From a virus, in IMG/VR virus record IMGVR_UViG_3300008262_000014, positions 1-64,000 of that record: a stretch of 64,000 nucleotides of DNA. One strand, given 5' to 3'. This document shows, in pieces, positions 17,348 to 39,302 of the stretch; within the stretch, counting starts at the first letter, position 1, and each line of letters begins with the position of its first letter. Position numbers and translations under genes: made by a program. The notes beneath the pieces are model-generated. The model searched no databases. It worked only from the letters and a program-made list of their open reading frames with translations, and was not told the DNA's origin.

Positions 17348-17407
17348 TTACTTTTTTATTTTTTTTATATATTGTTACAATATAATCATTTAAAAACAAT
17401 AAACCAA

Positions 17408-17417: not shown

Positions 17418-17432
17418 AAAAACATTACAACT

Positions 17433-17643: not shown

Positions 17644-17670
17644 AAATAAATAGTATATAAATATATAAAT

Positions 17671-17868: not shown

Positions 17869-17908
17869 ATTTAATTTTTTTTTTCTTATTTTTAATAAAA
17901 AAATAAAA

Positions 17909-20293: not shown

Positions 20294-20304
20294 GTCACAC
20301 TTAA

Positions 20305-20919
20305 TTATTTATTTTTTATAAAAAAATTATCCGCACCAACATTTCTTAAAAATTTAAATCCAAAATTATTTAAATAATTTTCAACTTCATTTGTGCCGTA
20401 ATTATTTTCAACAGATATGCAAAATATGTTATGTTTATCAAAATCTATTGATTTAATTACATTTAATTCAGATCCTTCTACATCTATAGAGATGTAATCT
20501 ATTTCTTTTTCATTTACTAAATCAGAAAATCTAACGGAATCAACATCTATTATTTTTTTCGTACCTCCATACGTATTTAACTCGCGATTAATTCTTTCTA
20601 AATGTCTTGGATCATATGTTTCAAATAACCCACTTAACATTTCAGAGTATCCATCAATTTGTAAAAATTGTAATTTTCCGTTAACTTCACTAACCGCTAA
20701 ATTATGTTTTATACATTTTCTATTACTCAATAATTTATTAAAAGACAGTGGTAAGGGTTCCACACATATACCGTTCCATCCAATATCTTCTAATATTTTG
20801 GTATTACTTAAACTAATACCGTCATTTGCACCTATGTCCACATAGAATCCATTTTTTTTGTCTTTAAATAATTCTTCAACTAAGAATTTATCTTGACCGT
20901 CTTGACTGTAATATTTCAT
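20305..20919 (-). CDS. FkbM-family SAM methyltransferase
   Basis: 204 residues. SQDGQDKFLVEELF, GFYVDIGANDGISLSNTKIL and WNGICVEPLP form the FkbM N-terminal SAM-binding set; later SDLVNEKEIDYISIDVEGSE and LNVIKSI complete it. FkbM enzymes methylate sugar or polyketide oxygens. In this cluster it probably O-methylates a sugar added by the neighbouring glycosyltransferases. Confidence 0.9.
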   Translation of the reverse strand: MKYYSQDGQDKFLVEELFKDKKNGFYVDIGANDGISLSNTKILEDIGWNGICVEPLPLSFNKLLSNRKCIKHNLAVSEVNGKLQFLQIDGYSEMLSGLFETYDPRHLERINRELNTYGGTKKIIDVDSVRFSDLVNEKEIDYISIDVEGSELNVIKSIDFDKHNIFCISVENNYGTNEVENYLNNFGFKFLRNVGADNFFIKNK

Positions 20920-20933
20920 ATATTAAAATTTTA

Positions 20934-21746
20934 TTAAATAAAAAAATCTAGTCCAGCAAAATATGCATTATTTGCAAAATTACCATTATGTAGATTAAAT
21001 AATTCTTTATTTTCTAAAAAACATATTGTGTAAATATTTTGATCGTCCGAAATGACTGATTCACTTATTGAATCATCGATAACTTTTTTTATTATTTCTG
21101 AATATTTTAAAATTGCCGACTTCGTTCCACCGAACCAAGCACCAACAATTCTAACATCATCTGATTCACAATAGTATTTTAGTTTATTTTTATCACTATC
21201 TTTAGGGTGTTGTCTATAAAATTGGTGAATTTTATTATCATACAATATATCTATGTTTTTTGAGGGGTATTTTTTAAATTTAAAAACCTCGGGAAACATG
21301 TGATGATATATACCACTATCCATCCAACAATGTAATTCAGAATCAAAAAAATTATTTTTTATTGTATTTTCAATAAATTTAGATTTTGCGAACTGTATTA
21401 TATTGTATATTGGGTAATTGGATTCCGGTCTTAATTTATCATGGTGTTTATTTTTTATGTTTTCAATAAAAAATTGACTATTCATTAAATTTGTTATTCT
21501 ATCTAAATAATCATAATAAGGAATTTCTTCTAAATTCATCGTTACAATAATAGTATTATTTAAATTTGGGTCAATTAATTTTCTATTTTCAATAAAATGT
21601 TCTTCTAGATTCGGTGTTGTATATATAACCATTTTACAATCTAATGATAACATATTCTTACTGTAATTTTTGTAATCATCTATACTCCGTTGGTAACCAA
21701 CCCAATTACCTCTATCTAAATCAAAAAGTGCCGTTGTTATAACCAT
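20934..21746 (-). CDS. HtrL/YibB-like glycosyltransferase
   Basis: 270 residues. TALFDLDRGNWVGYQRS near the N-terminus, CKMVIYTTPN, NIIQFAKSKFIENTIKNNFF and LHCWMDSGIYHH follow the HtrL/YibB (WlaTC) pattern: fDi.R..W..y.RS, K...i..a...n.f, f.WiD.G. The family sits in LPS or capsule loci and is thought to transfer sugars. No signal peptide, so it acts in the cytoplasm. Confidence 0.65.
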   Translation of the reverse strand: MVITTALFDLDRGNWVGYQRSIDDYKNYSKNMLSLDCKMVIYTTPNLEEHFIENRKLIDPNLNNTIIVTMNLEEIPYYDYLDRITNLMNSQFFIENIKNKHHDKLRPESNYPIYNIIQFAKSKFIENTIKNNFFDSELHCWMDSGIYHHMFPEVFKFKKYPSKNIDILYDNKIHQFYRQHPKDSDKNKLKYYCESDDVRIVGAWFGGTKSAILKYSEIIKKVIDDSISESVISDDQNIYTICFLENKELFNLHNGNFANNAYFAGLDFFI

Positions 21747-21762
21747 ATATAAAAAAATAATA

Positions 21763-22398
21763 CTATTTTATCACTAAAATTATGTTATTATCTCCATCAT
21801 TTCTACTATTTGGAATTTTAACTAAATCAATAAATTTATATCTATTTTTTACTTGATTAATAAAATTATTAAAATCAGAGTGATATCTTTTGTCAATATC
21901 TTCAATTATAAAGATACCACCATCTTTTAAAATATTAATAGAATTTTCAAAAAATATTTTGTTGGCGTTAAATGTGTGTAAACCATCTTCTATTATTACA
22001 TCAAACTGGAAATCAAAATTTTTCCATAATTGTTCAATTGAATTTGTGTTTGTTTGATCACATTTAAATGTCTTAATTCTTTCTTCATTTATTAAAATTT
22101 TTTCGTCGATGTCCGCACCATATATATTTGCGTTATTAAAATATTCTCTCCATCCTCTTAGTGATCCGCAAGGTGTTCCTAAACCACTCATATTAGAAGG
22201 TATGGACATATCATTTGTACCCAAACCCAATTCAAATACATTTTTAATCTCATCTTTTATGTCTTTAAAAATAAAATGATAAAATGTCGTATAATTATGG
22301 TGACCGGAACCTTTATCACTACCCCATTTATTCATAATATCACATAAATCTGTTTTTGTTTCATGTAAGTTGTTGTTAAAAAAATTTGTTAAATTCAT
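21763..22398 (-). CDS. class I SAM methyltransferase (sugar O-methyltransferase-like)
   Basis: 211 residues. MNKWGSDKGSGHHNYTTFYH, VFELGLGTNDMS, NIYGADIDEKIL and FDVIIEDGLHTFNA, then GGIFIIEDIDKRYHSDF match class I methyltransferases of the tetracenomycin/mycinamicin sugar-OMT type. ELGLGT is the SAM-binding motif. The run of TTTTA units at 22,408-22,437 lies in its leader. A relative of this gene is at 23,379 (same KYGTDK/ELGILN style). Confidence 0.75.
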   Translation of the reverse strand: MNLTNFFNNNLHETKTDLCDIMNKWGSDKGSGHHNYTTFYHFIFKDIKDEIKNVFELGLGTNDMSIPSNMSGLGTPCGSLRGWREYFNNANIYGADIDEKILINEERIKTFKCDQTNTNSIEQLWKNFDFQFDVIIEDGLHTFNANKIFFENSINILKDGGIFIIEDIDKRYHSDFNNFINQVKNRYKFIDLVKIPNSRNDGDNNIILVIK

Positions 22399-22407
22399 AT
22401 TTGTTAT

Positions 22408-22437
22408 TTTTATTTTATTTTATTTTATTTTATTTTA
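22408..22437. repeat. (TTTTA)6 tandem repeat
   Basis: Six perfect TTTTA units on the plus strand (TAAAA on the transcript of the methyltransferase gene). The last unit includes the TAA stop of the upstream GT4 gene. It lies 10 bases before the next start codon, so copy-number change could alter leader length and translation. Confidence 0.9.
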
Positions 22438-23379
22438 TTGTAAAAATACTTTTTTAAATTTATCCATTACGTTGCATGGTGAAAACATCTCATTTAAATA
22501 ACACGTATTGTATGGATTCTTTTTATTTATATTATTTAGGATTTGATCTAAATTATTTTGGTTATAATATACACTACAGTTATCTTTTAAATACATTATA
22601 TGTGATTTTTCAGGTGATAATCCATAGGTTATTATATGTTTATTTTTACACGCAAATTCAAGTACTGATAACCCAAAGCTCTCACCTTGCATCCTAGCAT
22701 GTAACATTGCATCACAAGTATTTATAAATTTTGTTTTAAAATACATATCGGATGTTGAATCTAAATATATGACTCTAGGATGTGTTATAAATTTATATGT
22801 ATTTAAAAATAAAAAAACAATATCGGATCTAGAATTTAAAATATTAACTATTGAATTTTTAACAAAGGGTATATCAAATGTTTCTAAACCACCATATCTA
22901 CCAACAACAACAGTGTCTTCAGGTATATTTAATTCATTACGTAAATTTTCTTCAATAATTGGTAAACTTATCATATGAGGAACAAATGGTATTTTATAAT
23001 TAGATGTTGATGATAACCATTCGGAGACCGTGGCATATACGTCGCCATGTACTTGTGTTGGATTGGTACAAAATACTGAATGTACACAATTTTTAACATC
23101 TGAAACTATCATTCCATCATTTTCACCACTTTTTATGATATAAAATAAATCAACTTTTTCTTTTTTTATATGATCATTAATTTCATTAAAAAGATTATAA
23201 TGTAAAACGTTAAAATATTTTTTAAATTTTTCTAAAACTTCAGAATCATTAGGTAAATTTTTATTAGTGATAATTATTGATTCGTTATTTAATATTTCTT
23301 GATTATAGTACGCATAGTCAAACAGGGCAACTGAGGTACCTCTCTTATTTAAAAAATTTTCATGAAACAATATCTTCAT
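22435..23379 (-). CDS. GT4-like glycosyltransferase
   Basis: 314 residues. KILFHENFLNKRGTSVALFD at the N-terminus and VVGRYGGLETFDIPFVKNSI, then HARMQGESFGLSVLEFACK and YYNQNNLDQILNNI are typical of GT4 enzymes (GESFGlsvlEa, EX7E motif region). It is a GT-B fold enzyme adding a nucleotide-linked sugar. It shares its first base with the stop of the preceding gene (23,379), so it is translationally coupled. Confidence 0.85.
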   Translation of the reverse strand: MKILFHENFLNKRGTSVALFDYAYYNQEILNNESIIITNKNLPNDSEVLEKFKKYFNVLHYNLFNEINDHIKKEKVDLFYIIKSGENDGMIVSDVKNCVHSVFCTNPTQVHGDVYATVSEWLSSTSNYKIPFVPHMISLPIIEENLRNELNIPEDTVVVGRYGGLETFDIPFVKNSIVNILNSRSDIVFLFLNTYKFITHPRVIYLDSTSDMYFKTKFINTCDAMLHARMQGESFGLSVLEFACKNKHIITYGLSPEKSHIMYLKDNCSVYYNQNNLDQILNNINKKNPYNTCYLNEMFSPCNVMDKFKKVFLQ

Positions 23380-24029
23380 TATCTTATTTTTTCGATAAGT
23401 ATAGTTTCTGAATGTATATGAATAGAAAAAATGTTACCCTTCTTTTTATCTAACATCTCAATTTTTTCTGATAGAAAACTATCAAAGTCGGATCTATTAT
23501 TATTAAAATTAACGTCAGAGTCATTATAAGACATACCTGGCCAATCTTTAACAATGTTACTAAAATTATTAAACCATTTATCACCATAAGTGCAGTGTGT
23601 ATCTTCTATAACATAGAAACCACCAGGTTTAACAGAATCGTATAATAAATTAAAAGATTCAAACGATAATTGATTTATGTGACTAGCATCATCAATTATT
23701 ATGTCAAACCCGCTTGGATAGGATTTTTTAATATCATTAATTAATTGACTGTTATTTTGTGACCCTATAAAAATTTTAGTTCTTTCTGTGTTATATATAG
23801 TCTTGGACGGATCGATGTCTAAACCAACTATATTGCCATTTATAAAGTACTCTTCCCATGTTTTTAAAGAACCCCCGTTTAATATACCCAACTCTAATAA
23901 TGTTATATTTAAGTTTTTATATTGTTCAAAATATCTTTCATAAACATCTAAAAAAGACCTACCATTAAATGAATGTACTAATGACTTATCAGTACCATAC
24001 TTTAAACCAATTTGTTGCAGTATACCCAT
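23379..24029 (-). CDS. class I SAM methyltransferase (sugar O-methyltransferase-like)
   Basis: 216 residues. IGLKYGTDKSLVHSF, LLELGILNGGSLKTWEEYF, IVGLDIDPSKTIYNTERTK, FDIIIDDASHINQLS and GGFYVIEDTHCTY give a complete class I methyltransferase layout, closest in style to the gene at 21,763. Its stop and the GT4 start coincide. It probably methylates a sugar hydroxyl. Confidence 0.75.
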   Translation of the reverse strand: MGILQQIGLKYGTDKSLVHSFNGRSFLDVYERYFEQYKNLNITLLELGILNGGSLKTWEEYFINGNIVGLDIDPSKTIYNTERTKIFIGSQNNSQLINDIKKSYPSGFDIIIDDASHINQLSFESFNLLYDSVKPGGFYVIEDTHCTYGDKWFNNFSNIVKDWPGMSYNDSDVNFNNNRSDFDSFLSEKIEMLDKKKGNIFSIHIHSETILIEKIR

Positions 24030-24032
24030 ATG

Positions 24033-24737
24033 TTAATATTTTTTTCTGTGATGATTTAATATAACACCATAATGTGAATTAGTAAACAATTCATTATGTT
24101 TATCACCCCACTGTGTAGGGTCCTTATATAATTCTATTTGGTTTTTTATTGATAAAATAGAAAGAATAGATTGGTCGTGTCTATGATCAATAAAATCACT
24201 AAAATTAATACCATTAGTATTTGGTTCGTCCGATATTATTTTAAAATTTTTACAAAAATTTAAATACTCCTCAACAAAAATAAGACTATTTACTGTTTTT
24301 TTAATTAAAATTACGGCAGCATTAACATGTTTACCATTTGTAAACTTTTCATCTAACGCATCTAATTCGTGGAAAGTATCATATTTTGTGAATTGACTAT
24401 TTTTATATTCATTAGAAAACAATATAATATCCTTATTAGCCAATAAGTTAAAAAGTGATAATGGATTATTAACAAAATTTATGGTAGCGTCGGTATACAT
24501 TATTATATCATCATCTTTTATATTATTTAATGTTTTTAAAATTAAATAAGGTTTCCATAACCAATAACCAAAACCTCTACCTCCTTCAAAGTGTTTAGGA
24601 TATAAATCCTTTAGTTCGGTTATATTATTTTCGTTATATAAAATAATTTCATCAAAAAAAGGTGATGCACTATTCCTTAAATTTGTTAACGTATTTTCAT
24701 AACCTTTAGATCCAAATGATATTAAATATTTTTTCAT
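24033..24737 (-). CDS. putative glycosyltransferase (GT-A-like)
   Basis: 234 residues. KYLISFGSKGYENTLTNL, GGRGFGYWLWKPYLIL and DDIIMYTDATINFVNNP give the nucleotide-binding start and a DxD-like turn (YTDA) seen in small capsule/LPS glycosyltransferases. RHDQSILSIL is a further family-like segment. The sugar and bond are unknown. It overlaps the next gene by four bases. Confidence 0.6.
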   Translation of the reverse strand: MKKYLISFGSKGYENTLTNLRNSASPFFDEIILYNENNITELKDLYPKHFEGGRGFGYWLWKPYLILKTLNNIKDDDIIMYTDATINFVNNPLSLFNLLANKDIILFSNEYKNSQFTKYDTFHELDALDEKFTNGKHVNAAVILIKKTVNSLIFVEEYLNFCKNFKIISDEPNTNGINFSDFIDHRHDQSILSILSIKNQIELYKDPTQWGDKHNELFTNSHYGVILNHHRKKY

Positions 24738-25432
24738 AGTATTTGTATTTCATTATTTTTAATTACTGAGGGTCTGTAACCAACCATACTACTAATTTTA
24801 GGAAAATATGATTCAAAAAAATACCTATTAAATCCCATTGTTTCTAAATTTTTATTAAAAAAATCTCTATTCATGTTTTTTAATAAAAATTCTATCACCG
24901 CTCCTTTAATCATATAAAATGTATTGGGATAAAAACCTGAAAATGGTGTTTTTATTGGAAAATTACATATTTCATTCAAATTGATATAATCTGGACTACC
25001 CTCATGATCAAAAATATAATCGACACCGACTATACCTACATTAGGGTTAACATTTAATAAATCTATCATATTATCTATCTGACCCCAAAAAAACGTTTCA
25101 TTATATATTCGATATTTTAATGAGTATTCTATAGTATGATAAGAAGATCCTTTAGTGTGTCCAAAAACCACATAATCATATTTTTTGTTTAATATACTTA
25201 AAGCCATTTGATAACCAGATGCGTCACTATTAATACATAAATTTTCAGGAACAATAATAAAATTTGGATAGTTAATTCTAATCTTATTAATTAAATTCTC
25301 ACTAGTACCACAATTTATACCGATGTATATATCATCTTTTTTAAAAATACCATCTATTAAATTTAAATAATAATCACCTAAAATATCCATGTTTTTAGGT
25401 ACCCAAAACGAAAATATTAAACATTTATTCAT
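24734..25432 (-). CDS. putative rhamnan/RgpF-like glycosyltransferase
   Basis: 232 residues. The pattern of an N-terminal KCLIFSFWVPKNMDILGDYY, DYVVFGHTKGSSYHTIEYSL and GIVGVDYIFDHEGSPDY recalls domains of rhamnan-synthesis (RgpF) enzymes, where h-K is followed by a GT-like region. Match is by general features only. Overlaps its neighbours by 4 bases on each side, so it belongs to one polycistron. Confidence 0.5.
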   Translation of the reverse strand: MNKCLIFSFWVPKNMDILGDYYLNLIDGIFKKDDIYIGINCGTSENLINKIRINYPNFIIVPENLCINSDASGYQMALSILNKKYDYVVFGHTKGSSYHTIEYSLKYRIYNETFFWGQIDNMIDLLNVNPNVGIVGVDYIFDHEGSPDYINLNEICNFPIKTPFSGFYPNTFYMIKGAVIEFLLKNMNRDFFNKNLETMGFNRYFFESYFPKISSMVGYRPSVIKNNEIQIL

Positions 25433-26010
25433 TTGCTAAAAATAACACCAATACCTCCCCAATCTGAATTATCGGAATCTTTTATCTCTAAAGTTTTGTA
25501 AGTATTTTTAACTTCATCCCAAAATTTAGATACATAACAATTAACACTTCTGTGATATTCGGAGTCGACAATATCGTGAAAGAAAACTATTCCACCCTTA
25601 TTTAACATTGGGAAATAATTTTCAAAATCTTTTTTAACACCTTCATACGTATGGTCACCATCAATAAAGATTAAATCATATCCATTTGGTGAAAAATTTT
25701 TAACATGATTTATTGTTTCAATATTAAAAGAATTTGCACTGATTCCCTCGTAATTTGTTATTTGTTTTAATCTATTAACATCAAATCTGAGTGGATTATT
25801 ACCATCAACAGTAATAAAATTTTCACAGAAATGTGTTAATGAAATTGAAGAACCACCATCGTATGCCCCAACTTCTAAACCATATTTAAATTTTTCATTT
25901 CTATCATTTAATATTTTTAACAACTCAAACCATTCATATTTTTTTTGTTGTATTTTGAATTCTTTTGATAGATCCCAAATCTTTTCTAAAAATTCTTGTT
26001 CGTATATCAT
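25429..26010 (-). CDS. class I SAM methyltransferase
   Basis: 193 residues. KYGLEVGAYDGGSSISLTHF, NFITVDGNN, YDLIFIDGDHTYEGVKKDF and GGIVFFHDIVDSEYH form the Methyltransf_24-type layout, with GAYDGGSS binding SAM and IDGDHTY near the metal/substrate. Probably a sugar or small-molecule O-methyltransferase acting in the glycan pathway. Confidence 0.8.
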   Translation of the reverse strand: MIYEQEFLEKIWDLSKEFKIQQKKYEWFELLKILNDRNEKFKYGLEVGAYDGGSSISLTHFCENFITVDGNNPLRFDVNRLKQITNYEGISANSFNIETINHVKNFSPNGYDLIFIDGDHTYEGVKKDFENYFPMLNKGGIVFFHDIVDSEYHRSVNCYVSKFWDEVKNTYKTLEIKDSDNSDWGGIGVIFSK

Positions 26011-26639
26011 AATTTAACTTTTATTAATTCAGTTATTTCATTTATTTTTTCAATACTAACTAATTCATATTTTAATGTACTCAATCCATCATTTTCATAT
26101 TCATATTCTTCAGATAGTTTTTTAACATTATTTTGATAGTTTGAGTGATTTGGCCCGTTTGGTATGTGTCTTAAAGATATATAGTGTCCCGTTCTTCTAT
26201 ACAAATCAAATCCATTCTTTTTAATTCTGTTTAACAAATCGTCATCTTCACCTCCCCATCCCCAAAAGTCATTACTGTATCCGTTAATTTTAAAAAAATC
26301 TTCTTTATTGAATAAATTAACACCACCATAATATGTTGGATAAGCAACACTACCACCAAATTGACCAACATTTGTTGCCATATGATATGGTTTATCTGGA
26401 TAACTATAATCTGCATTCGTTGGTATCATGTCAACATCATGAAAACAAAAATAATCTGAAGTGTTTTTTTTATAATCAAAACCAACATTCAAAAGTTTTG
26501 CGCGATTAAATAATTTCTCGTCAAATTGTTCAACAATTATAATACCAAAATCGATACCAACTATGTTTTTAGGTATTTCTGAAATAAATGTTTTCAAATG
26601 TTCTTCCCTATTTCTATATGGTACAATGATACTTAACAT
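26007..26639 (-). CDS. GT7-family beta-1,4-galactosyltransferase-like enzyme
   Basis: 210 residues. IIVPYRNREEHLKTF starts the domain, YFCFHDVDMIP is the metal-binding DxD, YYGGVNLFNKEDFFKINGYS follows, and WGWGGEDDDLLNRI is the GT7 hallmark. All occur in family order. In animals these enzymes transfer galactose or N-acetylgalactosamine from UDP-sugars with Mn2+; bacterial and phage forms are shorter. No membrane anchor, so it acts in the cytoplasm on a phage or host glycan. Confidence 0.9.
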   Translation of the reverse strand: MLSIIVPYRNREEHLKTFISEIPKNIVGIDFGIIIVEQFDEKLFNRAKLLNVGFDYKKNTSDYFCFHDVDMIPTNADYSYPDKPYHMATNVGQFGGSVAYPTYYGGVNLFNKEDFFKINGYSNDFWGWGGEDDDLLNRIKKNGFDLYRRTGHYISLRHIPNGPNHSNYQNNVKKLSEEYEYENDGLSTLKYELVSIEKINEITELIKVKL

Positions 26640-26644
26640 ATAAT

Positions 26645-27415
26645 TTAAAATAATGATTTTATTTTTGTTAGTTTATGGAAACTACTAGGTAATCCTGCTA
26701 AAAATGCGTCATTCGGATATTCCCAAACATTATAAAAATCAACAAGTTTATCTATATCATTTCTAAAATTTACAGATGCTGAACTATTTTCAAATTTTGT
26801 TCTAATATCATTTCTAATGTACGATCCATGGTGCATTTCTATTTGATCTCTATTAAAAATAATAGGGGTTGTTATTTCGGACATTCTTCTTGTTGGATCA
26901 ACAACAACTGGAGAAGGATGTGCATGTACGTATTTAGAATCTTTTTTAATTTTAAAAATTAATGAAACATAATATTCCTCTGGTGTGGATAATTTATATT
27001 CCCAACTTTTATAATAGGTCTGCATTTGACAATAAGATGAATCGTAATCATTTTCAACGATTATATTTTTAATCTTTTCAAATTCAGATTCAATATAATA
27101 TTCGTCACAGTCCATTGACATATGATGTGTACATCCTTCCATTTCAGATAAGATTAATCCAACATTTCTTTTTGAAACTTCATTGTACGCGGGACCGTTT
27201 TGTAAAATAGGTGTGAAAGAATATAATTTATCGATTAAACCATCTGATTTTAATTTATTTAAATTATCAATTAAATTCTCGTTGCATTCTTTACCAAAAT
27301 TAGATACCTTTTGATAAACAACACTAACATAATCAACTTGGTTTCGTATTTGTCTGATAGAACTTTCTAATAGTTCTTCTCCATCAAATACATTATAACT
27401 TATACCTAATTTCAT
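26645..27415 (-). CDS. putative glycosyltransferase, first gene of minus-strand glycan operon
   Basis: 256 residues from the ATG at 27413-27415. An in-frame ATG at 27,454 is rejected because it would put the terminator hairpin (27,421-27,448) inside the coding region. KLGISYNVFDGEELLESSI, VVYQKVSNFGKECNEN, THHMSMDCDEYYI (DCDEYY, a DxD-like site) and SYIRNDIRTKF give a GT2-like or related GT-A reading. The gene begins right after the terminator, so the glycan run probably has its own promoter or read-through from upstream. Confidence 0.65.
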   Translation of the reverse strand: MKLGISYNVFDGEELLESSIRQIRNQVDYVSVVYQKVSNFGKECNENLIDNLNKLKSDGLIDKLYSFTPILQNGPAYNEVSKRNVGLILSEMEGCTHHMSMDCDEYYIESEFEKIKNIIVENDYDSSYCQMQTYYKSWEYKLSTPEEYYVSLIFKIKKDSKYVHAHPSPVVVDPTRRMSEITTPIIFNRDQIEMHHGSYIRNDIRTKFENSSASVNFRNDIDKLVDFYNVWEYPNDAFLAGLPSSFHKLTKIKSLF

Positions 27416-27448
27416 AAAAAAAATATTCACTAAAATATAGTGAATATT
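27416..27448 (-). terminator. hairpin-plus-T terminator before the glycan operon
   Basis: 12-bp perfect AT-rich stem (27421-27432 with 27437-27448, ATTCACT core, loop about 4-5 bases) followed by T residues on the minus strand, ending at the ATG of the next gene. It closes the transcript of the 81-residue gene. Confidence 0.7.
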
Positions 27449-27478
27449 TCTCAAAATAAAAAGTTATTTTACTTTTTT

Positions 27479-27734: not shown

Positions 27735-27744
27735 TTATAAATAT
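27735..27744 (-). promoter_or_regulatory. candidate late promoter element
   Basis: Exact ATATTTATAA on the coding strand (also contains TATAAATA, the T4 late consensus), 10 bases upstream of the 81-residue gene. Confidence 0.45.
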
Positions 27745-28034
27745 TAGGGTTTTGAATAGTAATAAATAATATCAAAAATAATAAACATTATCGTTGGTAT
27801 TATACCTCCAATCAGTGTCCATTTAACATCTCTCCAATCAAACTTAGTTTTTTTGATGTGTTTATCATAAAATTCTTTCCCTATTGCAGATATTAATGAT
27901 CCACCGAAACCAAGTAAAGATGAAACAGATTGGTTGAACCAAAAATTAGAAATAAAGAACACTAAAAACCAAATTAATATCCCAGCCCAAAAGTGCATTT
28001 CGTCGTCTAATTTTTTAAATCTAATATTAATCAT
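27744..28034 (-). CDS. integral membrane protein (YfiM/DUF2279-like motif)
   Basis: 96 residues with three hydrophobic segments (HFWAGILIWFLVFFI, SSLLGFGGSLIS, WTLIGGIIPTIMFIIFDII). The motif AIGKEFYDKHIKKTKFDWRD matches the GKE.yDk...g..dw.D pattern of YfiM/DUF2279-like membrane proteins. It lies between the small protein and the T9SS protease, and the endolysin is nearby, so a holin role is possible but unproven. Confidence 0.6.
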   Translation of the reverse strand: MINIRFKKLDDEMHFWAGILIWFLVFFISNFWFNQSVSSLLGFGGSLISAIGKEFYDKHIKKTKFDWRDVKWTLIGGIIPTIMFIIFDIIYYYSKP

Positions 28035-28036
28035 AA

Positions 28037-29476
28037 TTATTGTTTCACTATTTTAAATGATTTTACATTATCTATATTCACTATATAAATACCTGAAGAA
28101 TATTTACTAATATCAATTGTATTTATCTTTTGAAGATTTCTTATTGATTTTAACAGAGTTCCCGTTATTGAATATATTCTTATTTCTGTAAAATTATTTC
28201 TATTAGGAAGATTAACAAAATAAATACCATTATTTGTATCTCCATTTACTGTAATTGAATTTATTATAGTCTGTGAATTTGTTACCCATTCACTAGGTTC
28301 AAAATTAAGAGCTGTTTGACCATCGAATACCCCTGTTATATTATAACTCCCTAACATACCATAATTGTAGATGTTAGAATTCTCTGTGTTACTTACAGCT
28401 AAGTAATAAATTCCAGGATTTAAAGTAGTGTCTATTAAAACATCAACTTTTGTTAGTGGGTTATACTCACCTATGAGAATATCGTTTCTATATAGTTGTA
28501 GTTTAATATCTATATTAGCACCTTGATTAGGTGTGTTATCTTTTGGTTCAAAAGCGTCAAAAAATATTTTAGGACCAGGACTATAAGGTTTGGTATCTAC
28601 TTTAAATTGTCCTGTTTTTGTATAATCAAATCGGTAATAATCTACATCATCAGTTGTATTGATTATTCCACTAATTGTGTAGTTTTTATCTAACATTAAC
28701 TTAGCATTTGTTCTATCATTCCCAACATCATCAGTTCTATATTTCACAAAGTTTGCCGTGTTAGTTATTATTGATAAATCATTTTGAAATGTTGTACATG
28801 TTAATGTTCGGTCATTATGCCAAAGACTTAAATTTCTAAAATACGAAACACCCATTATAGGTGCCCAACTAGTTTCACTTTTTGCTGTCCCTCTACCTGA
28901 ATGATATTCGGTATTAAACCTACAAGTATCTGTGTTTACAAAGTTATATTGTGATTGATGATAAAGTCCTAATGTATGTCCTACTTCATGTGAAACGGCT
29001 TCTGCAACATCTTTATCATCACCCCTTAGTAAACTTGAGAAAACAAAACAAGGAACAGTTCCGAAACCGGCTGGTCCATATCTCCATGATTCAATATAGG
29101 CAACCCCACCAACATTACCGTACCATTGCCAACTTTGAGTAATTATAACTCTCATCCTTCTTGTTACAGGTGTTGCCAAAAACACAGATGAATCTGTTGT
29201 TACATTTATTGTAAACGGTCTAAAATCTTCAGATACAAGATTGAAGACTCGTAACATCTGTGCAGTGGTAAGAGATGTATCAGGTAAACAAACAAATGGT
29301 TGATTATTTGTGAAAAATGTCCAATATGGGTCTGTTACAGTTTGACCATCAAAATCAAGTAAAATGGTTCCTGTGTTTGGTGCTGTATAACTATTTAAAC
29401 CGTAAGGTATTTGTGCTTTTATTCCAAGAATAAAACATAAAAGTATTAAAAATAAAAGTAATATTCGTTTCTTCAT
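28037..29476 (-). CDS. secreted metzincin metalloprotease with T9SS C-terminal sorting domain
   Basis: 479 residues. A Sec signal peptide (KRILLLFLILLCFILGIKAQ) starts the chain. The zinc site is HEVGHTLGLYH near residue 170, as in M12/M43-type metzincins, with a distal part from about 235 that looks like a bacterial pre-peptidase C-terminal domain (YYRFDYTKTGQFKVDTKPY). The last 70 residues (INSITVNGDTNNGIYFVNLP, IRIYSITGTLLKSI, IDISKYSSGIYIVNI) are a type A T9SS sorting domain. The enzyme is expected to leave the host through its type IX system and be attached at the surface or released. Such a tag in a phage gene is unusual. Confidence 0.9.
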   Translation of the reverse strand: MKKRILLLFLILLCFILGIKAQIPYGLNSYTAPNTGTILLDFDGQTVTDPYWTFFTNNQPFVCLPDTSLTTAQMLRVFNLVSEDFRPFTINVTTDSSVFLATPVTRRMRVIITQSWQWYGNVGGVAYIESWRYGPAGFGTVPCFVFSSLLRGDDKDVAEAVSHEVGHTLGLYHQSQYNFVNTDTCRFNTEYHSGRGTAKSETSWAPIMGVSYFRNLSLWHNDRTLTCTTFQNDLSIITNTANFVKYRTDDVGNDRTNAKLMLDKNYTISGIINTTDDVDYYRFDYTKTGQFKVDTKPYSPGPKIFFDAFEPKDNTPNQGANIDIKLQLYRNDILIGEYNPLTKVDVLIDTTLNPGIYYLAVSNTENSNIYNYGMLGSYNITGVFDGQTALNFEPSEWVTNSQTIINSITVNGDTNNGIYFVNLPNRNNFTEIRIYSITGTLLKSIRNLQKINTIDISKYSSGIYIVNIDNVKSFKIVKQ

Positions 29477-29479
29477 AAA

Positions 29480-29914
29480 TTAATCGGGTATTAAATCGGA
29501 CATTTCTTTTTTATACCAATAATTATTTTCCAATATTAAAACGTCTTTATGTTCTTTACTCATTAGAATTGCTTTGTAAACGTGTTCTCCTGTTTCTGTT
29601 GTAATATCAGTATAAATTAATATTAAATTTTGTACTTCAAGAGAATTTACAGTTAATGAGATTAATTTATCTGTTTTAATAAATCTTGTAATTATACCCT
29701 CAAATTTAGTATGTGTTGTAACACGTAAACTAACAATATCATGTCTTTCCACTTTTGATAATTGTTCAATAAAAATAGGTTGTAATTTTGATATAAGAGA
29801 ATCTTTAATAAAAAAATAGGGTTTATTTTTATCTCTTTCTTTTCTTGTTTGAAATTCTTGTGCAAATGAAAAAGATGATAAAAGAATAAATAAAATTGTT
29901 ACTATTTTTTTCAT
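29480..29914 (-). CDS. exported hypothetical protein
   Basis: 144 residues. KKIVTILFILLSSFSFAQEF is a Bacteroidota-like signal peptide, probably cleaved after SFA. The mature part is beta-rich (TTHTKFEGIITRFIKTDKL, VYKAILMSKEHKDVLI). It sits between the two paralogous proteases and may be an inhibitor, chaperone or partner of one of them; that role is inference from position only. Confidence 0.55.
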   Translation of the reverse strand: MKKIVTILFILLSSFSFAQEFQTRKERDKNKPYFFIKDSLISKLQPIFIEQLSKVERHDIVSLRVTTHTKFEGIITRFIKTDKLISLTVNSLEVQNLILIYTDITTETGEHVYKAILMSKEHKDVLILENNYWYKKEMSDLIPD

Positions 29915-29925: not shown

Positions 29926-30897
29926 TTAAAAACCTACCAATTGTCTAATTACCAAACTATCATTTTGAAAATTTGTACAACTTAAAGAAGTAGGACCAAT
30001 CCACCAATATCCTATTCTTGCATATGAATTACCCATAATAGGGGCTCTTGATGTTGATCCTGTACCAAATCCAGAATTATATTCAGATAAAAATACACAC
30101 ATGTCACTATAAGATGATTGATGATAAAGACCCAATGTGTGCCCTACTTCATGAGAACACGCTTCAAATATATTTTTTTGTTTATATCCGAGTGCTTTAC
30201 TAAATACAAAACATGGAACGTCTAATCCCCATTTAATAGATTCTATATAAGCCACCCCTCCAGCACAAGCAGTTGGCCCACAATAGAACTCAAAGTTTTC
30301 TGTTATTATCACTCTCTGTCTTCTTACAAGAGAAGCCGCATTGTAAACATTTGAATCTGTTGTTACGGCTATTGATGTAAATTGACTAAAATCTTTTCTA
30401 ACAGAGTCTACGATATTATTTATTTCAACTGTACTAAGACCTGAAGGAGTCGCATAAAAAGGCTGTCCTCCGTTTTGAGGAGTCCAATACGGATTTGTAA
30501 CATACTGCCCATCAAAATCTAAAAATATAACCCAATTCCCGAATGATGGGGGAGGAGGAAAAGGTGTAGCATCACAAGCATCTCCTATCCCATCTTTATC
30601 ACTATCTAGTTGGTCGGGGTTAAAAGTTACCGAACAATTATCTTGTGCGTCAGTTATACCGTCTTTATCCGTGTCTCTTGTTTTTCCACCACCTCTCCTA
30701 AGGGCAATTTGCCGATCTTTAGGTGACATCCTTGCAACAGTATTAAATTGAGTAATACCAAAATCACAGGTTTCAGGTGATTTTTTCTTTAATAGAAATT
30801 GATTTTTTTCTTGGTTTTCAGATATCAAAGATAAGTCATCTGTCATTTTATGACAAGAAAAGATAAAAACAATCAACAAAAGTAATAGTTTTTTCAT
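29926..30897 (-). CDS. metzincin metalloprotease lipoprotein with TSP3-like calcium repeats
   Basis: 323 residues. KLLLLLIVFIFSCHK is a lipoprotein signal peptide with the Cys at about 15. Residues about 75-110 hold thrombospondin type 3 repeats (DTDKDGITDAQDNC, DSDKDGIGDACD) that bind calcium. The protease part ends in HEVGHTLGLYHQSSY, and the whole domain aligns with the T9SS protease at 28,037 (FLDFDGQYVTNPYW/LLDFDGQTVTDPYW). It lacks the T9SS domain, so it should be anchored in a membrane. The ATG lies inside a 15-bp inverted repeat. Confidence 0.85.
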   Translation of the reverse strand: MKKLLLLLIVFIFSCHKMTDDLSLISENQEKNQFLLKKKSPETCDFGITQFNTVARMSPKDRQIALRRGGGKTRDTDKDGITDAQDNCSVTFNPDQLDSDKDGIGDACDATPFPPPPSFGNWVIFLDFDGQYVTNPYWTPQNGGQPFYATPSGLSTVEINNIVDSVRKDFSQFTSIAVTTDSNVYNAASLVRRQRVIITENFEFYCGPTACAGGVAYIESIKWGLDVPCFVFSKALGYKQKNIFEACSHEVGHTLGLYHQSSYSDMCVFLSEYNSGFGTGSTSRAPIMGNSYARIGYWWIGPTSLSCTNFQNDSLVIRQLVGF

Positions 30898-30935: not shown

Positions 30936-31352
30936 TTATATGTTAGATAATTGAAAGTGCATACCATCTTTACGATTCCATGTACCACCCCAATCAAAAC
31001 CTGCATCAGTAAAACATTTTACAAACCCCGCAGATAATGTTGGTTCTTTACCCAATCCATTCCAAGCCGCATTTACATCAATGGCAATACCCCAAGAGTG
31101 AAGAGACATAGAACTTAATCCTCTTTTCTTACGAATGTTAAAACATCCATCCCAAGTTCTTAGTTCATTTATGTGTCCTCTTGAAATTAGATTAGTAAAG
31201 GCATGTGTTAATGGTTGTACTAGATCTCTATTACAATAAATCTTTTTAGGGATCACACCAATTTCTAAATTAGATGGTACATCCCATACTACCATTCCTC
31301 TTTCTAATGTCGGATCACCGTACTTTTTTAATGCTTTTTGACTTGTTACCAT
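30936..31352 (-). CDS. M15 peptidase endolysin
   Basis: 138 residues. RGHINELRTWDGCFN, LSSMSLHSWGIAIDVNAAWN (the SxHxxGxAxD zinc site) and AGFDWGGTWNRKDGMHFQL (final zinc histidine) form the complete M15 DD-/L-alanyl-D-glutamate carboxypeptidase set used by phage endolysins such as T5 Lys. It cuts the peptide stems of peptidoglycan. No signal peptide, so a holin is needed for release. Confidence 0.85.
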   Translation of the reverse strand: MVTSQKALKKYGDPTLERGMVVWDVPSNLEIGVIPKKIYCNRDLVQPLTHAFTNLISRGHINELRTWDGCFNIRKKRGLSSMSLHSWGIAIDVNAAWNGLGKEPTLSAGFVKCFTDAGFDWGGTWNRKDGMHFQLSNI

Positions 31353-31364: not shown

Positions 31365-31784
31365 TTATATTATTTTATACCACCATAACCACCCAAATAA
31401 TCTTACAACATAATATCTTAGATAGTTATCGAATTTATTTGAATTTGTTAAATTTGTCCAAAATAACATTTCTTTATCCACCTCTTTTCTATTCATATTG
31501 TGATTTCTATTAACATATAATACATCGTGTACTAAATAACCAAAAAGACCATCATTGTATGGTCTTACGATTGACCATAACCATTTAGGTACGGTTGACA
31601 TATCATAATAAAATCCCTTACCAATATTTATGATTTTTCCATTACTCAAGTTTACTGTAATAGGTTCTGATATTTTCCAATATTTTGAACTTTTATCAGA
31701 ATAAACATAGGATTGGATGATTAGTTCATCTGTCATTAATTTCTCAACGACATTGTCTTTAGTTATATAACCTCGACTTACCAC
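31365..31784 (-). CDS. DUF1353 phage protein
   Basis: 139 residues from the long start; an inner ATG at 31734-31736 (MTDELIIQS) would leave 123 and avoid the 26-base overlap with the gene upstream. GFYYDMSTVPKWLWSIV, DGLFGYLVHDVLYVNRN and DKEMLFWTNLTNS match the DUF1353 family (.fDGaS.P...., HD.lY, AD..F...l). The family is found in tailed phages next to lysis or tail genes; its role is unknown. It is followed by the M15 endolysin. Confidence 0.7.
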   Translation of the reverse strand: MVSRGYITKDNVVEKLMTDELIIQSYVYSDKSSKYWKISEPITVNLSNGKIINIGKGFYYDMSTVPKWLWSIVRPYNDGLFGYLVHDVLYVNRNHNMNRKEVDKEMLFWTNLTNSNKFDNYLRYYVVRLFGWLWWYKII

Positions 31785-33444: not shown

Positions 33445-36400
33445 TTATATTATCCACCAATTATTATTTCTTGCTATTAATGTTAATGATATATAGTTTA
33501 TGTTCATATCGGCATATGAACCACCATCTATTGTTCCCGTTGGTGGTATTAATCTTATTCTGTAAGTACCACTATAACCACCTTCATCTTTTATTATTAT
33601 ACTTGCACCATCATTATTAACCGGTGATGGTAATGTTAAATTTACATTTCCACTATAACTAACACCATAATAACTAATTGATGTTGTTAACGTTTGTGAT
33701 GACACTGTGATTCCTGTTGTTGTGTATGTATTTATACCTGTAATACTATCTAAATTTCTGTATCTAATAACACCATTAGAGTCACTTGTTAATATTCTAG
33801 TATCGGTATTTCCACTCTGTAATCCTCCAAATCTAACAGGATTTGTAGAACCTGATACAAATAATTTATTCCCACTATCAACTGTTGTACCTATCAAGGT
33901 ATTTCCTGAAACACTATTTAAAATATTTGTACCTGTTGTATTTTGATATGCGATGTGTGTTACACCAGTCATACCAGACAATGTAGGGTTATAATATATA
34001 CCTCTAATTGTTGTAGTATAAATACTAGTATTATTTATAACAGGATCAATCAATAATGTATTGGCATCCCATCCATTTGTATTTGGACTTTCCCAACCTA
34101 AATTTATATTTACTATTGATGAATTTCCTTGAAAATAACTTCTAGTTAAACCATATCCACCTCTTCTAACAAACGCCCATTTATCTTTTGCACCACCTTG
34201 TTCATCTTCAATGATAAAAGTAACATTATTATTTCCTGGTCTTCTCCACAATCCAACATAGGCGGTTGGTTGTGTGGTTGATGTCGTATTTATTTCAAAT
34301 CCACCTACTCTTAAATTTTGTGTTACTACACCATTTCCATTTACATGTAAATTACCTGTAGAACTTATATTTGTTCTCAATGTTTGATTAAGTGAAGGAG
34401 GATTACAACCAGAACCATCACAAGACGGAGATAAGCCGGTGTCGGTATAAGACAGAGTTGTTGTACTAAATTCAGTAGTGAATGTTGTATAATATCTATT
34501 TGTACCGTTCCATGGGTTTGTTCTATATATTCTATATTGTGATACCCCATAAATTGCGGTCCAAGTAAGTTGTACCGAATTAGTTGTTCCACCAGAGATT
34601 GTTACAGATGTTGCAGTACCTGCTGGTGTGGTATAATTTAAGTTATCAACCGCAACAATTCTATATGAATATGTTGTTCCTGTTGTGTCTCCCGTGAGTG
34701 AACCCCCAATTGCAGATACTGTTGCAGATGGTTGTGATGGTGTTGATATAGTACCAACACCAAAATTACTTTGTATTCTTGTTACACCATAACTGTCAAA
34801 CTTATGACCGGAATCTGTTGTTGAACCGATGATTATGTTTCCATTATTTCTAAAATACGCACCAAATGTTGAGGTATTGTCAGAAGGTCCACCAACCAAC
34901 CATTCACCACTTAATTGACCTGTTGTGAAATTTCCTGCGTATATTCTAAATTTATACCCTTCTTGTTCCATCCAACTCCACCAGTTACCGTTAAAACCAC
35001 CAGTATTGCCTGCTGGTCTAAATGTTAATCTAGTCCTAAAAGGATTTAGTGTAGTACTCTCATCAGAAATTTCAACAATACCGTCGTTTGAGTTCCCATA
35101 TATGGAACCATACCCATAACTAGAACCAATGACGACACCCGCATTTTTGGTTCTTAAATCAATATATGTCCTATTAGAAGTCGAACCAGTATATGTTGGG
35201 GATATATCCACACCCACATAGGTACTAGTTCCTGTTGTTGTTGCACCTATTATGGGTGAAAACAAAGTACCAATTGTTGTGCCGGTAGGTGCGTTTATCG
35301 TTGGAGAAAAAGTTGTTTGTGGATTAATAGTTAGTGTATAACCACTTGTTGTTGATAATGTCCTATCACTGTTTAGTGTCCCATTACTATTGTATATGTT
35401 AGCAAAATCGGATATATTTCTATATTTAATAACACCATTATCATCACTAGATAATATCCTAGTATCCGTTGTACCACTTTGTAAACCGACTAATCTAATT
35501 GGGTCTGATGTGTCTTCTACATGTAATCTATTTAATGGTGATACGACACCAATACCTATTTTACCATTTGAGGTTGGAGAATCACTTGGACTTCCACCAG
35601 AAGTATCAAAATTAGTATTAGTACCAAATAAAACACCACCAATGTTAATAGAATCTGTAGTTCCATTTGGTAATGTAATAGAATTACCAATAATAATATT
35701 ATTTTTACCTATTTTACTAAAACCAAATCTAGGTGTACCAACATTAAAACCTATTAATGTTGAATATGATGCATTAGTTGAATTGTTACCAGCCAAATAA
35801 CCAATAAAATTAGAAAAACTGGCATTAGTGGCGTTTGAACCTGCACCAGTCCCCATAAATGTTGATCCCGATGCATACACCGCATTACTACCTGCAGAAT
35901 TACCTATAAAATTTGAATCAAACCCCTTTACTTGTCTATCAAAACCAATGTAAGTAACACCTGTAACACCATAACCCGCATTCGCACCGATAAAATTTGA
36001 AAATCCCGCATTCAATGAATTATAACCAGCAGAATTACCTATAAAGTTTGATTTATAGGCATTTTTAGCACTACTACCGGCAACCTCACCAATAAAATTT
36101 GAATTATCATTATCATTACCATTACTACCTGCACTGTAACCGATAAATGTTGACCTTGAAGCACCGGTAGTGCTTCTACCGGCATATGAACCAAATGATA
36201 TTTGGTCAAAACTTAACGACTCTGTGTTCTGCCCCAAAGCAAAGGAACCACTACCACTACTACCTGTTACAACAACTGGTTTAAGGTAAGGTAAAACTCC
36301 TGGAGTTTCACTACTTTCTGAATACCATTTAGGAACACCTTCTAAGTTTCTTCCATCACCATAAAAGGTACCGCCACTTATTGTTGTTGCACTTATCGTA

Positions 36401-39228
36401 TTAGACGTTAATCCACTTTGGAATAAAACATTTCCTGTTACGGTACCACCAGATAGTGGTAAATAATCATTGACTACTGAAGATATTGTATTTGCAGTTA
36501 AACCTGTTATGTTTAAAAATATTCTAAATCCACCACCGGTATTATAACCAAAATAAAGTACGTTGTATCTATTATCAAAACTACCACCTGAAATAAATTT
36601 ATCCGCCGTTAATTTTTCAATATCGGCATACTTTAAAACACCATCATCTTCAACTATGATAACCGTATTTCCTGTTGATGGTTGTAACCCTTGTATTCTA
36701 ACTGGATTTGTTGCACCTGTAATATGTAACAAATTTGTTGGTGATGTTGTACCAATACCAACATTTGTACCGTCATATGTAAATCCACTACTACCTGTTA
36801 ATATTCCGTTACTATTGTATATTACTTGTTTATTCGATCCAACACCATAAAATGTTCCACCACTTATTGTTGTTGCGGATATTGTATTTGCACTTAAATT
36901 ATTTAAATTTAAACCATTTAGGTTTGTGTTTCCTGTAACAGTTAAATCCCCATTAACAGTTAATCCTGTCATCACATCAATACTTGTGTTAAATGTGTTT
37001 CCAGAATTATCTTTTATTGTGAGTGTATTATTAAGATATGTGAATCCAGTTACGTATGTATCTGCGGTTACAGTATTCAAAACATCTGATATGTTTCTAT
37101 ATTGTATAGTATTTCCTGTATTTAATGTTAATATTTTAACATCATTTAAACCTAAATTAACAGTATCTAACTGAACAGTATTACTGAACCTACTAGTTCC
37201 ATTAACATCAAATTGATACGTACTATTTAATACATTCACACCAACTTTAGCATTAAATCTTAAGTAATCATTCGTGAAATCACCCCATATTAATGGTGTT
37301 GATGTGTCGGTATTATCGATATATAATAAATTCGATCCTGTTTCTAATCTACCACTATTTGTACCAATAAAGACATTACCACTACTTGTGGTTCCGTTTC
37401 TACCTGATCTATATCCAATGTAAACATTATCACTACCTGATTGATTTAACGCACCCGCACTTTTACCATATATAGTATTATTGTCACCTGTCTTATTAAA
37501 TTGAAACGAATTTGTTCCAGTAATTACGTTAAATCTTCCAGTTGTCTTATCTAAAGCAGCACCATTCCCTATGAAAATGTTGTCATCACCTGTTGTACCT
37601 GTTCCCCCCGTAAAACTTGTTGCAACATTTTCGCCGATAGCTATATTAAATTTTCCATTAATTAAAGACATTAGAGCCCTATCACCTATTGCCGTGTTTC
37701 TAAACCCTATTGTTACGGCAGAAAGGGCATTACTACCAAAAGCTGTATTTGCATATGTTGCAATTGCATTTTTACCACTATTTAATCCAAAATATAGTGA
37801 AGGTGATATTGGTACCTCAACTGTACTATAAGTCCCTCTAATTTCAAATATAGTATTACCCGAAGAGTCTATTCCATTTAAAAAAGAATCATTTATATTA
37901 GACCCTAATTTTAAAGATAGGGTATTTCCACTTAAATCAACAACCCTATTTGATTGTAAAGAACCATCAACGGTATATATATTGTCTATATTAGTTAAAT
38001 TAGATCCATCACCATAAAATGTTCCACCACTTATTGTTGTTGCAGACAATGTACCATTAACAGTTAATCCGGTAAATTGATCAATCGTAACATTGAAAGT
38101 GTTACCTGAATTATCACTTAAAGAAAGTTTATTATCATTATATGTGAAACCTGTTAGGTACGTATTGGGATCTATGGGTAAATTTTCGTAGGTTGTTGCA
38201 TATATTGTATTTGCAGTTAAACCACTTTGAAATATAACGTCACCAGTTACAGTACCTCCACTTGTTTGGAGATACGGAAAGTTTGTTTGTCCTGTAAAAT
38301 TAATACCAAAATTAGGATATGAACCTGTAATTTCTAATCCAGTTCCACCAGATATTGTGACAGTCCGGTCAGGTAAAGTATTTGTAATTGTGAAGTTAGG
38401 GTATGTACCACCCGTCAATATTCCAGTACCACCACTAATAGTCACCACCTGATCTGGTAATGTGTTTATTAAAACAACATTTCCGGTTGTACTATTCCCT
38501 GAAAGTCCTGTACCACCACTAACAGACAATACGATATTTGTTAAATTACCACCATTACCATAAAATGTTGACCCACTTATTGTTGTTGCGGATATTGTGT
38601 TGGCATTTAATTTATTTAAATTTAACACATTAAGATTTGTATCACCTGTAACTGTCAAATTACCATTAACAGTTAAACCAGTTACTTTATTAATTATTGC
38701 GTTAAATGTTCCACCTGTATTATCAGATATTGTAAACGTATTTGTGTCGTTATATCCAAAATTTGTAACATAAGTATCGGGATCTATTGGAAGGTTTTGA
38801 TAAGTTGTTGCCGATATTGTTGTTGCGGTAAATCCACCAAAGAGATTTGTATTCCCATTAACGGTTAGATTACCATTAATTGTTAACCCTGTTAATATAT
38901 TAAACGATGCGGTTAAAGTATAACCAGATCTATCAACAATTGTGAATGTATTTGCATTATTATATGTAAATCCGGTGGTATATCTATCAAAATCATATTC
39001 AAAACCACTAATTGTAATGGTATTACCACTATTACTAGTTAATGTTAGTACTCCCTGACTAAAAGATCCTCCATTTAAGTACAAGTCACTTATAGATACA
39101 CCTGATAAAAATATATTTTCAGAATAAATTGCATTTATAGGTCCATCAATTTTACCTATATCAACCGTATATCCTGAAGGTACGGTTATTGTGTCTATTT
39201 GGGACCAATTTATTTTTTGTAGTGCCAT
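33445..39228 (-). CDS. giant repetitive tail-fibre protein
   Basis: 1,927 residues. The chain is built of repeated modules. One is the TVNGNLTVTGDTNLNGLNLN / NTISATTISGGTFYG unit seen at least four times; a second is a YadA-head-like run of SNFIGYLAGNNSTNASYST / AGSNAVYASGSTFMGT repeats around residues 1,000-1,150. The C-terminus (SYSGNVNLTLPSPVNNDGAS, DGGSYADMNINYISL) is a compact beta end and no S74 endosialidase chaperone is visible. Such proteins form trimeric adhesive fibres. Its repeats make recombination and length change likely. The start ATG is inside an imperfect inverted repeat. Confidence 0.85.
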   Translation of the reverse strand: MALQKINWSQIDTITVPSGYTVDIGKIDGPINAIYSENIFLSGVSISDLYLNGGSFSQGVLTLTSNSGNTITISGFEYDFDRYTTGFTYNNANTFTIVDRSGYTLTASFNILTGLTINGNLTVNGNTNLFGGFTATTISATTYQNLPIDPDTYVTNFGYNDTNTFTISDNTGGTFNAIINKVTGLTVNGNLTVTGDTNLNVLNLNKLNANTISATTISGSTFYGNGGNLTNIVLSVSGGTGLSGNSTTGNVVLINTLPDQVVTISGGTGILTGGTYPNFTITNTLPDRTVTISGGTGLEITGSYPNFGINFTGQTNFPYLQTSGGTVTGDVIFQSGLTANTIYATTYENLPIDPNTYLTGFTYNDNKLSLSDNSGNTFNVTIDQFTGLTVNGTLSATTISGGTFYGDGSNLTNIDNIYTVDGSLQSNRVVDLSGNTLSLKLGSNINDSFLNGIDSSGNTIFEIRGTYSTVEVPISPSLYFGLNSGKNAIATYANTAFGSNALSAVTIGFRNTAIGDRALMSLINGKFNIAIGENVATSFTGGTGTTGDDNIFIGNGAALDKTTGRFNVITGTNSFQFNKTGDNNTIYGKSAGALNQSGSDNVYIGYRSGRNGTTSSGNVFIGTNSGRLETGSNLLYIDNTDTSTPLIWGDFTNDYLRFNAKVGVNVLNSTYQFDVNGTSRFSNTVQLDTVNLGLNDVKILTLNTGNTIQYRNISDVLNTVTADTYVTGFTYLNNTLTIKDNSGNTFNTSIDVMTGLTVNGDLTVTGNTNLNGLNLNNLSANTISATTISGGTFYGVGSNKQVIYNSNGILTGSSGFTYDGTNVGIGTTSPTNLLHITGATNPVRIQGLQPSTGNTVIIVEDDGVLKYADIEKLTADKFISGGSFDNRYNVLYFGYNTGGGFRIFLNITGLTANTISSVVNDYLPLSGGTVTGNVLFQSGLTSNTISATTISGGTFYGDGRNLEGVPKWYSESSETPGVLPYLKPVVVTGSSGSGSFALGQNTESLSFDQISFGSYAGRSTTGASRSTFIGYSAGSNGNDNDNSNFIGEVAGSSAKNAYKSNFIGNSAGYNSLNAGFSNFIGANAGYGVTGVTYIGFDRQVKGFDSNFIGNSAGSNAVYASGSTFMGTGAGSNATNASFSNFIGYLAGNNSTNASYSTLIGFNVGTPRFGFSKIGKNNIIIGNSITLPNGTTDSINIGGVLFGTNTNFDTSGGSPSDSPTSNGKIGIGVVSPLNRLHVEDTSDPIRLVGLQSGTTDTRILSSDDNGVIKYRNISDFANIYNSNGTLNSDRTLSTTSGYTLTINPQTTFSPTINAPTGTTIGTLFSPIIGATTTGTSTYVGVDISPTYTGSTSNRTYIDLRTKNAGVVIGSSYGYGSIYGNSNDGIVEISDESTTLNPFRTRLTFRPAGNTGGFNGNWWSWMEQEGYKFRIYAGNFTTGQLSGEWLVGGPSDNTSTFGAYFRNNGNIIIGSTTDSGHKFDSYGVTRIQSNFGVGTISTPSQPSATVSAIGGSLTGDTTGTTYSYRIVAVDNLNYTTPAGTATSVTISGGTTNSVQLTWTAIYGVSQYRIYRTNPWNGTNRYYTTFTTEFSTTTLSYTDTGLSPSCDGSGCNPPSLNQTLRTNISSTGNLHVNGNGVVTQNLRVGGFEINTTSTTQPTAYVGLWRRPGNNNVTFIIEDEQGGAKDKWAFVRRGGYGLTRSYFQGNSSIVNINLGWESPNTNGWDANTLLIDPVINNTSIYTTTIRGIYYNPTLSGMTGVTHIAYQNTTGTNILNSVSGNTLIGTTVDSGNKLFVSGSTNPVRFGGLQSGNTDTRILTSDSNGVIRYRNLDSITGINTYTTTGITVSSQTLTTSISYYGVSYSGNVNLTLPSPVNNDGASIIIKDEGGYSGTYRIRLIPPTGTIDGGSYADMNINYISLTLIARNNNWWII
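36375..38589. repeat. direct repeats inside the fibre gene
   Basis: Four exact copies of a 16-base unit (CACTTATTGTTGTTGC) at 36,375-36,390, 36,861-36,876, 38,028-38,043 and 38,574-38,589, each inside a longer similar segment that encodes the ISATTISGGTFYG module. These favour recombination within the gene. Confidence 0.8.
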
Positions 39229-39276: not shown

Positions 39277-39302
39277 AAAAAAAGGAGGAAAAACCTCCTT
39301 TT
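39277..39302 (-). terminator. rho-independent terminator
   Basis: AAAAGGAGG (39,280-39,288) pairs with CCTCCTTTT (39,294-39,302) with a 5-base loop; the A-rich left flank gives a U-run on minus-strand RNA. It follows the glutaredoxin gene. Confidence 0.75.

Follow-up and report, generated by a model that had tools for sequence, protein, structure and literature searches.

The window, the whole 64,000-nt stretch of DNA that was analysed, lies in a 127,871-bp virus contig (record G000) and encodes at 28037–29476 on the minus strand a 479-aa protein with matches to Pfam, NCBIfam, and PDB-based profiles. A preliminary description made from the sequence had presented this open reading frame, without a strand, as a phage-encoded metalloprotease with a Sec signal peptide, a complete metzincin site, and a type A sorting domain of the type IX secretion system (T9SS), and all of these elements were recovered. 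The protein is predicted to consist of the Sec signal peptide (aa 1–21, 29414–29476), a catalytic domain (aa ~35–245), a PPC-like (pre-peptidase) domain (aa ~265–385), and a T9SS type A tail (aa ~425–479), all on the minus strand. The predicted signal peptide (MKKRILLLFLILLCFILGIKA/Q), read from the sequence, has a hydrophobic N-terminus with probable cleavage at A/Q, and the same N-terminal form occurs in relatives from the Chitinophagaceae. The zinc site HEVGHTLGLYH (aa 163–173, 28958–28990, minus strand) and the Met-turn IMG (aa 207–209, 28850–28858, minus strand) are kept in relatives and, through the HExxHxxGxxH pattern with its Met-turn, identify the product as a predicted metzincin zinc protease.

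Profile searches, which the preliminary description had named as a check, placed both ends of the protein in known families. The catalytic domain passed the Reprolysin_3 model narrowly (22.7 against a cut-off of 22.4) and resembles the serralysins and the snake-venom (adamalysin-like) metzincins by profile search. The sorting domain (aa 425–479, 28040–28204, minus strand) was above cut-off for both Pfam Por_Secre_tail (PF18962; E = 1.9e-7, 31.7 bits, cut-off 27) and NCBIfam TIGR04183 (E = 1.7e-6, 27.9 bits, cut-off 23), was found again at the genome level, and gave a match that runs to the last residues. The family profile also matched solved T9SS tails, those of mirolase (8qb1, E = 6.8e-4) and endonuclease I (8glk, E = 0.02). 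An AlphaFold model of moderate confidence (pLDDT 65 overall), the other computational check that had been suggested, contained approximately seven strands past residue 405, as expected for a T9SS tail. Fold matches of the full protease model were mostly to the PPC/collagen-binding-like domain and said little on catalysis.

The next gene upstream with respect to transcription, 3 bp away, encodes a 144-aa Sec protein (29480–29914, minus strand). This protein gave nothing convincing against Pfam and NCBIfam, only chance matches in a profile search against PDB sequences, and no match among viral predicted structures; PHROGs contains no family for it or for either metzincin of the window. Its AlphaFold model was confident (pLDDT 89.8), and a Foldseek search against the PDB returned six chains of 6O38 (E = 1.2e-3 to 3.7e-3, probability 1.00) at a modest TM of 0.44–0.58, with nothing beyond 6O38 better than E = 0.23. 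The 6O38 structure shows CpaA, a secreted metzincin, bound to its chaperone CpaB. CpaB is encoded beside CpaA, which depends on it to be stable and secreted, and the C-terminal tail of CpaB blocks the active site (PMC7542363). By their short lengths (117–130), the matched chains would be CpaB. A protein first singled out by its position next to a metzincin therefore resembles a metzincin chaperone in its predicted fold, a likeness drawn from one fold search, and this fold similarity is what suggests a chaperone or plug function. The phage partners share a conserved C-terminus (WxKKExxDxxPD), which we guess could be the plug.

The genes on either side appear to form one block with this pair. 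Upstream of the partner lies a second metzincin (29926–30897, minus strand), a 323-aa tandem copy with 53% identity to the T9SS-tailed protein over ~209 aa of the catalytic part, a lipoprotein-type signal, thrombospondin-3 repeats (TSP_3, E = 2.1e-6), and no T9SS tail. It is preceded by a predicted M15 peptidase endolysin (30936–31352, minus strand; PF13539, E = 6.4e-15, and PHROG lysis families) and by a DUF1353 protein (31365–31784, minus strand; PF07087, E = 4.8e-11). Downstream of the T9SS metzincin, a small membrane protein (27744–28034, minus strand) with weak family matches is a holin candidate at most; it recurs beside phage metzincins in 11 of 30 dereplicated loci. The order of transcription is thus endolysin, lipoprotein metzincin, partner, T9SS metzincin, and small membrane protein, and the gaps within the metzincin block of 2–38 bp suggest that it is co-transcribed. 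The preliminary description had brought up neither the lipoprotein copy nor the partner, and likewise neither the capture of a host operon nor the earlier reports of phage T9SS cargo that are taken up below.

The surrounding genes of the record include a tail sheath (E = 9e-63), a tail tube, a baseplate wedge, DnaB, and a DNA polymerase of T4-like type, by which the record is assigned to a T4-like myophage, in agreement with the earlier attribution of the protease to a phage. No end repeats were found in the 127,871-bp record, which is possibly incomplete for that reason, and a nucleotide search against named phages gave no match.

A profile scan identified 45 viral contigs with relatives of the metzincin, some in records of 150–287 kb, and three kinds of protein could be distinguished among them. 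The full arrangement of Sec signal, metzincin, PPC-like domain, and T9SS tail was found only in G000, L003/L004, L010/L011, and L012, which represent four lineages; the tail was above cut-off in G000, L003, and L004 and below cut-off in L010 to L012. A second kind, with 24 dereplicated copies, consists of tail-less lipoprotein-type metzincins, mostly of ~300 aa, with a lipobox-like pattern in 20/24, TSP3-type repeats in 22/24, and the zinc site and Met-turn in 24/24. The third kind, from Synechococcus phage S-CRM01 and three others, comprises cyanophage-type proteins lacking a signal or tail; the metzincin-PPC gene of S-CRM01 (L009:8797–10707) lies between the head genes gp21 and gp22, and its product, with no signal peptide, may act elsewhere. 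The partner adjoins the tailed protease in all six virus records with that form, and a scan of the virus contigs with the partner returned exactly five contigs, those with the T9SS-tailed protease. Among viruses the partner occurs only with the T9SS-tailed form, which argues that it serves that form, and the 144-aa protein is on this distribution the predicted dedicated partner of the T9SS protease.

The distribution of the pair also bears on whether the protease is a phage gene at all. The nearest cellular relatives are bacterial, as would be expected if host DNA or an assembly chimera had entered the virus record, but in four distinct lineages the protease and partner occur together with phage genes around them, identity to bacterial copies reaches ~44% at most, and the phage copies form a clade of their own. 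A host or chimeric source for the pair was rejected on the strength of the independent phage contigs that carry it, and its probability is negligible.

Many freshwater phages have a lipoprotein form, in some cases at the locus where others have the T9SS form. L019 has the flanking genes of the window with the lipoprotein form alone, L013 and L010 have a lysis-side flank in common but hold the lipoprotein form and the T9SS pair, respectively, and the window and L003 hold both. Because phages differ in what this locus contains, with some having the T9SS pair, some the lipoprotein form, and some both, location outside the cell would seem to be what is selected. One enzyme with two tags at the same locus amounts to a natural experiment, through which the importance of surface location is directly testable. 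GIY-YIG homing-endonuclease-like genes lie between the M15 endolysin and the metzincin in L010 (3825–4424) and L013 (1405–2061) and may drive the swapping of forms at this locus. Two lipoprotein loci have a second protease, a papain-family (C1) cysteine peptidase encoded directly upstream of the metzincin (L015:4756–5640 and L025:4292–5170).

Among genome contigs, a scan with the window protein alone as a single sequence found no relative, while the profile scan returned 73 cellular loci. The metzincin family is widespread in free-living bacteria, and the nearest cellular relatives belong to the Chitinophagaceae and close Chitinophagales and have T9SS-like tails. The partner gene lies immediately upstream in 16/16 Chitinophagaceae-type loci, most of them in the same chromosomal neighbourhood. 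When 80 family genomes were scanned, 24 had a full protease, the same 24 had the partner (E < 1e-10), and the two genes were adjacent in every one; a further genome had part of a partner gene where a contig ended, and another gave a marginal match. SprA, the T9SS translocon protein, was detected in 7/7 donor-type Chitinophagaceae genomes tested and in 0/14 controls, which points to a T9SS in the nearest donor-type genomes and may extend to the presumed host of the phage. The protease and partner apparently derive from the family of that host.

In a tree of catalytic domains, the Bacteroidota-type phage copies formed one clade (96/95) inside a group with the Chitinophagaceae (100/99), within which the T9SS-tailed copies (98/81) and the lipoprotein copies (100/99), including the second metzincin of the window, each formed a clade. 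As the phage copies form a single clade beside the Chitinophagaceae, the captured unit was probably a two-gene host operon from bacteria of this type, and the fixed chromosomal place in bacteria, together with the outgroups, points to transfer from host to phage. The simplest reading of the tree would be a single capture of the host pair with lipoprotein re-tagging within phages; a test of the T9SS and lipoprotein forms as products of two captures disfavoured this alternative without rejecting it (p-AU = 0.086). Copies of the cyanophage type cluster with proteins of cyanobacteria at two points of the tree (support 100 and 89), so the protease family was captured independently there. Somewhat short of an even chance is given to a broader proposal, in which phages, having captured the operon, rewrote the metzincin at the same locus from a chaperone-plus-T9SS route to a lipoprotein route, and outer-surface proteolysis is a step that Bacteroidota phages have acquired repeatedly and use generally during infection.

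This descent also makes it conceivable that the protease keeps the role that the host enzyme presumably has, and that once secreted it digests surrounding proteins (matrix, prey, or competitors) and so feeds the infected cell or its kin. The bacterial pair is a normal secreted protease of the Chitinophagaceae, and the family is common in free-living bacteria. The phage lipoprotein clade, by contrast, has lost the PPC domain and carries a membrane anchor in place of the free secretion tag, which better fits a local target, and an auxiliary nutritional or community role is considered improbable.

The phage copies are, as far as substitution patterns indicate, under purifying selection. Between the window metzincin and an independent phage copy, dN/dS was 0.109 overall, 0.094 for the catalytic part, and 0.31 for the tail, which evolves faster than the remainder; the partner had a dN/dS of ~0.1 between two phages, as did the protease. 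The zinc site and Met-turn were intact in 28/28 Bacteroidota-type phage copies examined. Acquisition of a host gene pair by chance, as neutral or transient cargo with no function for the phage, would agree with the small number of virus records, six, in which the tailed form was recovered, but low dN/dS in both genes, intact catalytic sites in all copies, a long-lived phage clade, and the separate captures by cyanophages make it highly improbable.

Several known systems resemble parts of this arrangement. Phage-encoded T9SS cargo as such is already published: Cryophage cargo includes an endoglucanase, a GH39 enzyme, and a PA14 protein, with the same idea of hijacked host secretion (PMC7468147), and crAss-like cluster 2 phages have T9SS-domain proteins that are BACON-associated (PMC6949934). 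The window protein shares with them the phage-encoded T9SS type A tail and the proposed use of host secretion, but the accessible text of these reports describes no protease, partner, or lipoprotein counterpart for their cargo. The chromosomal pair of the Chitinophagaceae agrees with that of the window in domain order, tail, zinc site, and a partner gene upstream, yet identity to the window protein is at most ~44%, and the latter is ~50 aa shorter, with most of the region between PPC and tail absent. The SCRM01_042 protein of S-CRM01 is likewise phage-borne and belongs to the same metzincin-PPC family but has no signal peptide or T9SS tail and groups with a Synechococcus protein as a separate capture.

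CpaA/CpaB of Acinetobacter (6O38; PMC7542363, PMC6299215), like the pair in the window, combines a secreted metzincin with a small partner from an adjacent gene, and the predicted fold of the window partner bears a modest resemblance to CpaB. CpaA exits by the T2SS, whereas the window metzincin carries a T9SS tail, so the window pair would be similar in working and not a member of the CpaA/CpaB class. Further, CpaB retains a membrane anchor while the window partner has an apparently cleavable signal, and the gene order differs in that the partner comes first in the window. The Mtz/Tim pair of Listeria, of phage origin, raises phage lysis and virion release ~five-fold (PMC8235301). It offers an analogy as another phage-associated secreted metzincin with a partner, though from a Gram-positive host with no T9SS, and Tim is a TIMP-like lipoprotein that is cleaved by Mtz. 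In the open-access literature no report was found of a phage T9SS metalloprotease, of its partner, or of a phage lipoprotein metzincin family; new here are the metzincin as phage T9SS cargo, the chaperone-like partner, and the re-tagging among relatives. The partner is a candidate dedicated chaperone for T9SS cargo, in hosts and phages alike.

To our knowledge, how Bacteroidota phages handle the outer surface of their hosts has been little studied. The natural reading of the signal peptide and tail is that the protease would be exported to the cell surface or the medium, and surface export assisted by a dedicated partner is regarded as likely. From sequence and gene setting we infer export, timing, substrate, and purpose along the following lines. 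The partner and protease would be made from the tail and lysis gene region of the phage, probably late, and brought into the periplasm by Sec, where the partner would fold the protease and hold it quiet. The host T9SS would move the protease out and its tail would be removed; T9SS export requires an energised membrane, so the protease would have to exit before lysis begins. The active protease and the lipoprotein-anchored copy may then cut surface proteins of the infected cell, and a loosened or cleared surface would allow virions to be released and not re-bound. In this way phages appear to borrow an export machine, a cargo, and a helper from the host to place a protease outside the infected cell.

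The complete proposal is modestly favoured: with the help of a chaperone, the protease would pass through the host T9SS, cut proteins at the surface, and probably aid release. Support of lysis and release is preferred for three reasons: an endolysin adjoins the metzincin locus in three lineages (window, L010, and L013), the gene region is one of tail and lysis genes, and the phage-derived metzincin pair of Listeria has its ~five-fold effect on lysis and virion release (PMC8235301). The notion that all metzincin phages keep the gene in a lysis cassette held only partly in the neighbour scan, where a lysis enzyme was recognised in a minority of the loci with the lipoprotein form, and release as the purpose is for this reason proposed tentatively, at close to an even chance. 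A surface address reached through two different tags would also suit a protease that strips receptors, blocking other phages and preventing the loss of progeny on the cell or its debris, and the Cryophage authors suggested that phage T9SS cargo acts in superinfection or competition (PMC7468147). No receptor is known, however, and the gene has an endolysin and tail genes as neighbours and no recognisable early region around it, which leaves superinfection exclusion or receptor clearing unlikely, if the least so of the alternatives to aiding release.

Several other genes of the record are of separate interest. Glycosyltransferase-like and methyltransferase genes (GT2, GT10 fucosyltransferase-like, and FkbM), numbering more than a dozen next to the tail region, form long blocks at window positions 16694–27454 and record positions 118819–126063 and could serve glycan decoration of virions or of the host surface. 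A 1927-aa repetitive protein (33445–39228, minus strand) with recurring GLTVNG and ATTISGGTFYG-like units, for which PHROG and Pfam searches gave no significant match, is a probable tail fibre. A NusG-like protein with a KOW motif (41331–41852, minus strand; PF02357, E = 1.4e-10; PF00467, E = 6.9e-6) is a possible phage transcription or antitermination factor. The thymidylate synthase (14280–15431, minus strand) is, at 383 aa, longer than usual and its 266-position profile matches in two stretches, perhaps owing to an insertion or an extra domain. Glutaredoxin-like and thioredoxin genes (PF00462, PF00085) lie side by side at 39301–39886 on the minus strand.
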